Assembly: GCA_937934745.1 (NCBI GenBank)
Contig: CALGZC010000038.1
Span: forward strand, 62,001-126,000
DNA length: 64,000 nt
Source of the DNA: an uncultured Blastocatellia bacterium
GTDB taxonomy: Bacteria > Acidobacteriota > Blastocatellia > Chloracidobacteriales > Chloracidobacteriaceae
Direction: 5' to 3'
In this document: in pieces, positions 45,850 to 49,092 of the stretch
Numbering within the stretch: the stretch's first letter is position 1
How the letters are laid out: the number at the start of each line of letters is the position of its first letter
The notes under the pieces: model-generated
The model's database searches: none
What the model saw: the letters and a program-made list of their open reading frames with translations, nothing else
What the model was told of the DNA's origin: nothing
Position numbers and translations under genes: made by a program

Positions 45850-45969
45850 TAGCCTCCATGAGCCTCACGGCCCAAACTGACGTCCGAGGCGAGGCGTACC
45901 GGTCACACCGTTTTGCACATGATGGTGTCCGGACAACACAGTTTCTGAAGCAGGAGCCTTGTTTACACC

Positions 45970-48900
45970 ATGAGCGCACCCACGCCGTCCGTTCGTCCTG
46001 TCATCAACCCAATTCGTACCCGCGCCGACTGGGAGGCACAGCGCGGTGCCTGCCGGCAAGACCCGGGTGCTTTTCACGGCGCCATTGCGCAGCGTGCCAT
46101 TCACTGGTTTGATGTCGCCCGTGCAGCCTGGCTAACGTATGACGAAGCTGCCGGATGCTGGACCGGATATGCCGCCCAAACCGGGGCCGCCGTTACGTGT
46201 GACGCGGCAGACTTTACCCCCTGGACGCGCGCCTTTGACGATACCGATGCTCCCTACTACCGCTGGTTTGTCGGCGGCTTCACCAACGCCTGCTTCAATG
46301 AAGTGGACCGCCACGTCCTGGCCGGCCACGGCGACGAGATTGCATTTTACTTCGAGGGCGACCGCTGGGATCAGTCGCTTGACGATGGGCGCGGCGGCCC
46401 GGTGGTTTCCTTTGCGGTGACGCGCAAGCGCCTGATGTTGGAGACGGTCAAAGCAGCGCTCGTACTCCAGGGACTGGGGCTGCGCGCCGGCGACCGCATC
46501 GCCATCAACCTGCCCAACATTATGGAGCAAATCTACTTCACCGAGGCTGCGAAGCGACTCGGCGTCATCTACACACCGGTTTTCGGCGGGTTTTCGGCAA
46601 AAACGCTCAGCGACCGCATCCACGACTCTGGAGCAAAGGTTGTCATTACGTCGGACGGTGGCTACCGCAATGCCCAGATTGTGCCGTACAAGGAAGCCTA
46701 CACCGACAAAGCCCTGGATGATTATGTGCCGGTTGCGGACGTTCTCGACATTGTCCGTGACACGCTCGAAATGCTGACCGAAAAATCCACCTTTGGGTGG
46801 ATGGGGGAGCACTTTCACGATGCCGTCATCGAGCATATTTGCCAGGCCGTGCGCGCCGCGATGGCCGGCGACATCACCGTGGAGCGCGCCGACGCCATGC
46901 GCGGCGTTGGCGTCGGCCTCAGTGAGCTACGCATGCTGTCGGCCAAGGCGAAGTCCCTGATCCGCACCGCCATCGCCAAGGCGCTCGTGACCACCCCGGC
47001 GCGCGTTGAAACGGTTGTTGTTGTCAAGCATACCGGACAGGAGATCGTCTGGCGGCCGGAACGCGACCGCTGGGCGCATGACCTGCTGGCGGAGGCGTCG
47101 CGTCGGCTGCTGGCGACGGCCCAGGAACGCGGCCTGCCCGTTGCCGCCGAAGATGACCTGCTCAATCTGCCGACGGCCGAGTTTGTCGGCGTTCTCTACG
47201 CGCACTCGCGCCCGCTGCCGGTCGCGGCGGAGTTTCCGCTGTTTTTCATCTACACGTCGGGCAGCACGGGCAAGCCCAAGGGCGTTGTCCATGTTCACGG
47301 AGGCTATGTCGCCGGCCTCGCCCACACGATGAAGGTTGCGTTTGACGCGCGTCCGGGCGATGTCATGTATGTCATTGCCGATCCGGGCTGGATTACGGGA
47401 CAGAGCTACCTCATTTCGGCAGCACTGACGACGCGCGTCACGAGCGTTGTCGCCGAAGGTGCGCCGGTGTTTCCCAACGCGGGGCGGTTTGCTTCGATCA
47501 TCGAGCGTTACCGGGTCAACATCTTCAAAGCCGGTTCGACGTTTCTCAAGGCAATTATGGCCGACCCGCAGCATCGCGCCGACGTGGAGCGTTACGACGT
47601 GTCTTCCCTGCACGTCGCTACATTTTGCGCCGAGCCGACCTCCCCGGCCGTCCAGCAGTTTGGGATGGAGTTACTGTGTCGGCAGTACATCAACTCCTAC
47701 TGGGCAACGGAACATGGCGGCATTGTCTGGACGCACTTTTACGCCAACGATGACTTCCCGCTCCGGCCAGACGCCCACACGTATCCTCTGCCCTGGATTA
47801 TGGGCGATGTGTGGGTGGCGGAGGAGACGGACGATGCCGGCGTCGCCATCCGCCACCGGCCGGCCGCCGTTGAAGAGAAGGGCGAAATTGTCATCACCCA
47901 GCCATATCCCTACCTGGCGCGAACCGTCTGGGGCGATGTGGCAAGCTTTACTGTCACCCTGACCGCCACCGGCAACGGCTTTGAGACCGCAGCCGTTGCA
48001 CCGGGCTGGCGCGGCGATTTCGAGCGCTATCAGAAGCTTTACTGGACGAAATGGGCCGGAACGCTCGCCTACACGCAGGGCGACTTTGCGCGTAAGTACG
48101 CCGACGGCAGCTTCAGCCTACACGGGCGCTCAGACGACGTCATCAACGTGAGCGGCCACCGGCTTGGAACAGAGGAAATCGAAGGGGCAATCTTGCGCGA
48201 CAAGCAGATGAACCCAAACTCGGTCGTGGGTAACGTCATTGTTATCGGCGCACCCCACCGGGAGAAAGGTCAGACGCCGGTCGCCTTTATCCTGACAGCT
48301 CCCGGACGCAAATTGACCACGGAAGACGAACGCCGACTTTCAGAGCTGGTGCGGCAAGAAAAAGGACTAACGGCCGTACCGTCCGATTACATTCCGGTCA
48401 GCGCCTTTCCTGAGACACGGAGCGGCAAGTACATGCGACGGTTTCTGAAGAACCTGCTGTTTGACGAGCCGCTGGGTGATACGACGACCCTGCGCAACCC
48501 TGAAGTCCTTGCGGAACTGGCGGCCAAGATCAGGGAGTGGCGTGAAAAAACGCGCTTGCGCGAAGAGCATCGCATCTTTGAGACGTATCGCTACGTGCGC
48601 GTGCAGTATTTCGATGTTGTTCCTCCAAAGAATGGGCAGGCTGCCCGGCGCATTGCCCTGGTGACCATTACGAATCCGCCCGTCAACGCGCTCAACGAGC
48701 GGGCGCTGGACGAGCTAATTACCGTTGTCGAGCACCTTGAGCGGCGCACTGATGTGCAGGTTGTCATTTTCACCGGAGAGGGAACCCGCTCGTTTGTTGC
48801 CGGCGCCGACGTCAAGCAGTTACTGGATTTCAAGACCGCTGCCGCGGCGCTCCCACTACCGAATAACGCCCACCTGGTCTTCAGTAAAATTGAGCAGATG

Positions 48901-49092
48901 GGCAAGCCGGTGATTGCCGCAGTGAACGGCGTTGCGCTCGGCGGCGGCAATGAGTTCCAGATGGCCTGCCACTACACGGTGAGCGAACCGACGGCCGTGT
49001 TTGGGCAGCCGGAAATTCGGCTCAACTTGATTCCGGGCTACGGCGGAACGCAGCGCTTGCCACGTCTGCTAGCGCTGCGCCGGGGCGAATAA
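45970..49092 (+). pseudogene. Truncated propionyl-CoA synthase (acyl-CoA synthetase plus partial enoyl-CoA hydratase; reductase domain absent)
   Basis: The 1,040-residue frame resembles the Chloroflexus trifunctional propionyl-CoA synthase from its first residues (NPIRTRADWEAQR) through the synthetase domain. That domain has the phosphate loop YTSGSTGKPKG at 428-438 and the catalytic Lys820 in PETRSGKYMRR. The enoyl-CoA hydratase domain starts near residue 885 and contains both crotonase glutamates (Glu995 in GGGNEF, Glu1015 in GQPEIRL). The frame stops a few residues after GYGGTQRLPR, in the middle of the crotonase fold. No frame downstream continues the protein. The roughly 780-residue remainder, including the enoyl-CoA reductase, is missing. 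The synthetase reading frame is intact, so a 3-hydroxypropionyl-CoA synthetase product is possible. Confidence 0.85.

Follow-up and report, generated by a model that had tools for sequence, protein, structure and literature searches.

The window, a stretch of 64,000 nucleotides from a genome of the genus Chloracidobacterium (in keeping with the first-pass annotation, which had taken the host for an acidobacterium), encodes the N-terminal half of a propionyl-CoA synthase (Pcs), and the complementary C-terminal half is encoded by a separate intact gene that the same genome carries on a different contig. The reading we favor, with a probability of roughly 0.85, is that gene fission split Pcs within its crotonase domain, and that the two products form a two-polypeptide Pcs, the crotonase domain of which is completed by their association, functioning in a partial 3-hydroxypropionate branch. 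As a genomic fact a Pcs encoded by two genes and divided inside the crotonase domain is well supported and constitutes a new variant of a known enzyme; its assembly and function, as judged from the sequences, are likely.

The N-half gene (Table 1) has no internal stop over its 1040 codons. Residues 18-1039 of its product align to residues 26-1051 of the Pcs of Erythrobacter sp. NAP1 (PDB 6eqo) with a score of 1286 bits, and its identity to fused Pcs ranges from 57 to 64%. Pfam profiles recovered ACAS_N, AMP-binding and AMP-binding_C, in that order, followed by ECH_1, which is matched over positions 5-144 of 251 only. The synthetase lysine K820 is present, and the two crotonase glutamates, E995 (in GGGNEF) and E1015 (in GQPEI), are both kept and both invariant. 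The stop codon lies 8 residues past the GYGGTQRLPR motif, and the gene 3' to it is on the opposite strand in a convergent orientation, with its end 44 bases downstream, so that nothing continues the N-half locally; indeed, no continuation was found downstream in the vicinity, whichever frame or strand was read. These observations bear out much of the first-pass annotation, which had described a frame resembling Pcs from its N-terminus through an undamaged synthetase and into the hydratase, ending just past the above motif with both glutamates present and with no downstream frame to continue it. An ordinary acetyl-CoA synthetase (AcsA), the placement that the same annotation had named as the contrary outcome for this domain, was rejected, as the NCBIfam equivalog TIGR02188 gave 468 bits, below its cut-off of 725. 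In five congeners (loci L014, L015, L016, L017 and L019) an ORF resembling phosphoribosylanthranilate isomerase (KICG...GLIFAPSS, recognized by eye) is found 3' of the N-half, and its place in the window is taken by the unrelated convergent gene.

Table 1. Features of the split Pcs and of permuted Pcs-like genes (coordinates without a prefix refer to the window)
Feature	Position	Strand	Basis
RBS-like sequence AGGAG ahead of the N-half ATG	45945..45969	+	direct sequence reading
N-half of split Pcs, 1040 aa	45970..49092	+	ORF, Pfam, 6eqo alignment, orthologues sharing its end
Acyl-CoA synthetase domain, ~residues 82-870	46213..48579	+	Pfam ACAS_N, AMP-binding, AMP-binding_C
Synthetase P-loop YTSGSTGKPKG	47251	+	
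Catalytic Lys820 within ETRSGKYMRR	48412	+	
Half crotonase (enoyl-CoA hydratase), ~residues 890-1034 (first ~145)	48637..49072	+	Pfam, dN/dS
Fission point, N-half ends GYGGTQRLPRLLALRRGE-stop	49036..49092	+	orthologue ends, comparison with fused Pcs
C-half of split Pcs, 821 aa	G000:C55:51476-53941 (= L079:10476-12941), outside the window		intact ORF, other contig
Permuted Pcs-like gene	L142:2452-9540 (G056:C72)		
Permuted Pcs-like gene	L143:1872-9005 (G225:C53)	-	

The reductase domain had initially been considered gone, and a search of the rest of the genome for it and for malonyl-CoA reductase had been proposed; both were recovered. A search of the window genome with the C-terminal part of the Rubrivivax Pcs (L043) yielded a single match, on contig C55, with 61% identity over query residues 2-795 of 798 and no stops, and across the window genome and G001-G005 the C-halves show 59-61% identity to the same protein (query residues 2 or 3 to 795 of 798), likewise without stops. 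The C-half comprises the C-terminus of the crotonase and the whole reductase. It possesses its own start, reading MSNLSASGTATASAAVPDTLLDAIEILVGGRN, a ribosome-binding-like site and a short, Ser/Ala-rich N-terminal extension of about 17 low-complexity residues, and the continuation of the broken crotonase is LLDAIEILVGGRN.... It aligns to residues 1054-1846 of 6eqo, and the two products hence tile the solved Pcs exactly, with a gap of 2 residues. By Pfam and by comparison with 6eqo they together provide the ACS, ECH and ECR domains in the order typical of Pcs, with homology over the whole length. As the three activities are spread over two ORFs, which sit on separate contigs or at a large distance on a shared one, instead of a single fused polypeptide, the pair is classed as a split variant of Pcs and not as a plain member.

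Fused enzymes read RLPRLLAARRGADGLRDALDLILGGRN across the break and, after the point corresponding to the end of the N-half, go on as (A)DGLRDALDLILGGRN, which implies that no conserved residue has been lost by the split. Across species the N-half ends 1-8 residues beyond the conserved part, with species-variable tails after LLALRR/LSLRK and a stop codon that is TAA in the window and TGA in the congeners read. A frameshift or readthrough mechanism was ruled out by these differing tails, the changing stop codon and the location of the C-half elsewhere, and a split intein by the absence of any extension of intein size from both termini. N-halves that stop at the same point are complete in five congeners (G001 and G003-G006) and have their start cut by the contig in a sixth (G002) and in a member of the sister genus (G008). 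C-halves occur in G001-G005 and, cut by a contig end, in G008, such that both halves of a split at the same residue are present in five other Chloracidobacterium genomes and in the sister genus. The shared break point indicates that the split is not the recent loss that had been suggested at first, a suggestion also at odds with the low dN/dS of the N-half (see below). In two-contig genomes contig C2 (~1 Mb) carries both genes, at a distance of 0.1-0.6 Mb from each other; the genes flanking the N-half differ from those flanking the C-half, and the genomes were assembled separately. A C-half search across 297 Acidobacteriota genomes recovered permuted relatives and a single weak match but no other member of the split form. 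The draft of G006 (99% complete, 90 contigs) encodes malonyl-CoA reductase and an intact N-half, yet no C-half was found in it. The segment that would hold the C-half and the neighboring dienelactone-hydrolase-like gene is missing from this draft (contigs C22 and C4), and the segments flanking the absent gene are rearranged, lying at two other places that are not contig ends; a gap in the draft is a plausible cause, with a true loss as the other candidate.

The fused Pcs used as references are those of NAP1, other proteobacteria and Gemmatimonadota (there was no Chloroflexota locus among the contig-scan matches), with 16 complete ORFs of 1822-1892 aa forming the comparison set. Of 704 columns invariant in these 16 proteins, 634 (90%) are conserved throughout the five complete split pairs, namely 301/332 in the ACS part, 73/81 and 25/29 in the crotonase before and after the break, respectively, and 235/262 in the reductase, with the retention being even on either side of the break. 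Both halves are under strong purifying selection: pairwise dN/dS is 0.05-0.11 over the C-half and 0.03-0.08 over the whole N-half, of which the half crotonase alone gives 0.03-0.06; many of these pairs have dS near or above 1, and the unsaturated pair G001-G004 gives 0.033 for the N-half and 0.072 for the C-half. The sole relaxed part is the N-terminal extension of the C-half (dN/dS 0.12-0.82), as expected of an unconstrained new terminus. In separate trees of the N- and C-terminal parts (a joint tree was also built) the split clade branches at the same place, with a gammaproteobacterial/rhodocyclacean group on one side and, on the other, a large group made up of further proteobacterial sequences and those of Gemmatimonadota. 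Such matching positions are what a single gene fission in a common ancestor predicts.

In the intact crotonase domain of NAP1, as modeled by AlphaFold (pLDDT 77; best PDB match 6eqo, TM 0.91), the break maps to the turn that connects helix H156-168 to helix H170-182. When the window protein is modeled alone, residues 984-1040, which hold both catalytic glutamates, have a pLDDT below 50. This is only suggestive of an N-half that may be unable to complete the crotonase active site by itself, as the models were built on shallow alignments (6 and 16 sequences), which may partly account for the low pLDDT.

These data also bear on explanations that require no association of the two chains. The N-half might by itself be a 3-hydroxypropionyl-CoA (or propionate/acrylate) CoA ligase with a vestigial or structural crotonase tail and the C-half by itself an acryloyl-CoA reductase, with some other enoyl-CoA hydratase acting between them. 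The in vitro activity of the isolated ligase domain of NAP1 Pcs (PMC11599936), the occurrence of an N-half without a detected C-half in G006 and the several ordinary crotonases in the genome would all be compatible with such an arrangement. However, a vestigial tail should decay, and the purifying selection on both parts of the crotonase, which matches or nearly matches that acting on the domains beside it, with the glutamates kept, thus counts against it, as does the fact that the halves meet without the loss of any conserved residue. We accordingly consider this arrangement improbable. The earlier proposal that the N-half was retained as a stand-alone 3-hydroxypropionyl-CoA synthetase is likewise not needed and leaves the conserved half crotonase unexplained.

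Far less probable still is a pseudogene decaying after the loss of its reductase: such a gene would be shorter than fused Pcs and lack a local continuation downstream, as is the case here, but the break is common to six congeners and the sister genus, dN/dS is ~0.06 (0.033 for G001-G004) and the C-half is found elsewhere. An equally slight chance attaches to a full-length gene broken by an assembly or sequencing artefact, i.e. a frameshift or a chimeric contig. Such breaks do occur, as in two metagenome-assembled fused Pcs (L054:2759-2990 and L048 near 5920), which have frameshift-type breaks in the crotonase region, near the same place; there the remainder continues directly downstream in another frame and the breaks have the look of assembly errors. 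In the Chloracidobacterium split, by contrast, the halves are separated by contig or by distance, in closed genomes too, among different flanking genes in separately assembled genomes, and the C-half brings a start, an extension and a ribosome-binding-like site of its own.

In the two-polypeptide Pcs proposed here, the N-half would supply the synthetase and both catalytic glutamates, and the C-half the rest of the crotonase and the enoyl-CoA (acryloyl-CoA) reductase. The two chains are predicted to associate, with the parts of the crotonase fold complementing each other, and the complex would, like fused Pcs, turn 3-hydroxypropionate into 3-hydroxypropionyl-CoA, this into acryloyl-CoA and the latter into propionyl-CoA, without releasing the reactive acryloyl-CoA. 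As the genes for the halves are unlinked, their co-expression is not guaranteed, and the malonyl-CoA reductase gene is linked to neither in Chloracidobacterium.

Malonyl-CoA reductase is present at full length (~1217 aa, 42% identity to the NAP1 enzyme over its length) in all seven Chloracidobacterium genomes, although the match in G003 has one internal stop; in G008 it is represented by fragments on two contigs. The enzymes of the window genome and of four cleanly aligned congeners, at 1216-1217 aa, have two SDR halves with a YxxxK motif in each (YVVPK and YAVSK), a count that leaves out G004, where the aligned row is a wrong antisense ORF, and G008, where the fragment does not reach the second motif. 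Upstream of the gene in the window genome (L110:5343-11264, contig C29) are a MaoC-like hydratase and an acyl-CoA dehydrogenase, and comparable ORFs are found ahead of it in G001, G004 and G006, possibly as one functional cluster. Four genomes were tested for further steps: each has four matches to the carboxyltransferase family PF01039 and two to the methylmalonyl-CoA mutase family PF01642, assigned at the level of family and not of substrate, and none has a match to the HpcH_HpaI family (PF03328; malyl-CoA/citramalyl-CoA lyase), for which the control gave matches in 9 of 14 genomes. By the established pathway malonyl-CoA reductase, Pcs, carboxylases and the mutase together would convert acetyl-CoA and 2 HCO3- to succinyl-CoA, which does not amount to autotrophy, and an HpcH_HpaI lyase is needed to close the bi-cycle. 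Thus, the carboxylase and mutase of the autotrophic 3-hydroxypropionate bi-cycle are represented and its glyoxylate-releasing lyase is not. The split Pcs would hence operate with malonyl-CoA reductase, biotin carboxylases and methylmalonyl-CoA mutase in an anaplerotic, reductant-consuming branch from acetyl-CoA to succinyl-CoA, not in the full autotrophic bi-cycle. The first-pass annotation had seen in the gene a hint that the 3-hydroxypropionate route once existed in, or was acquired by, this lineage; the gene does bear on this route, and the presence of malonyl-CoA reductase throughout the genus indicates that it is not only a relic.

For Chloracidobacterium thermophilum autotrophic CO2-fixation genes were reported absent and bicarbonate nevertheless required (PMC4376005), whereas in the emended description bicarbonate stimulates growth and is not essential (PMC12816986); both papers suggest an anaplerotic carboxylation of succinyl-CoA. 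Among Chloracidobacterium papers later than the 2012 genome paper, these two included, there was no mention of propionyl-CoA or malonyl-CoA reductase where the text was searched. Neither half passes the cut-off of any NCBIfam model listed, a possible reason for their being obscured in automatic annotation. We regard it as reasonably probable that a two-chain Pcs, with a crotonase active site formed only when the chains meet, provides together with malonyl-CoA reductase a bicarbonate-dependent route from acetyl-CoA to succinyl-CoA that published genome analyses missed, and that could explain the need for bicarbonate or the stimulation by it. This phototrophic acidobacterium thus appears to own a CO2-using pathway that it was said to lack, and malonyl-CoA reductase and both parts of Pcs offer a testable reason for its bicarbonate dependence. 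Pcs moreover serves as a stock case of enzyme fusion in which a closed chamber retains a toxic intermediate (PMC10176485). A natural form severed midway through one catalytic domain, and maintained in that state in a genus and in its sister, puts to the test whether the chamber needs its parts to be covalently fused.

Other Acidobacteriota (family code f24) encode a permuted Pcs-like protein of 2362-2377 aa, in which an extra crotonase, the synthetase and the reductase are followed by the Pcs-type crotonase in last position (Table 1). The split form has its three domains, their linear order and the tested catalytic residues in common with the fused Pcs known from Chloroflexus and from aerobic anoxygenic phototrophs, among them NAP1 (6eqo); it differs in consisting of two polypeptides from unlinked genes, with the break inside the crotonase and an added Ser/Ala-rich extension on the C-half. 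The malonyl-CoA reductase of these genomes is likewise a full-length homologue of the bifunctional NAP1/Chloroflexus type, but in NAP1 its gene is directly 3' of pcs, whereas in Chloracidobacterium it is unlinked. A form of Pcs made of three separate enzymes has also been mentioned (PMC10176485). Separate 3-hydroxypropionyl-CoA synthetase, dehydratase and acryloyl-CoA reductase similarly divide the overall reaction among several polypeptides; these are however whole and independent enzymes, whereas the Chloracidobacterium break bisects the dehydratase, leaving neither chain with a complete one.
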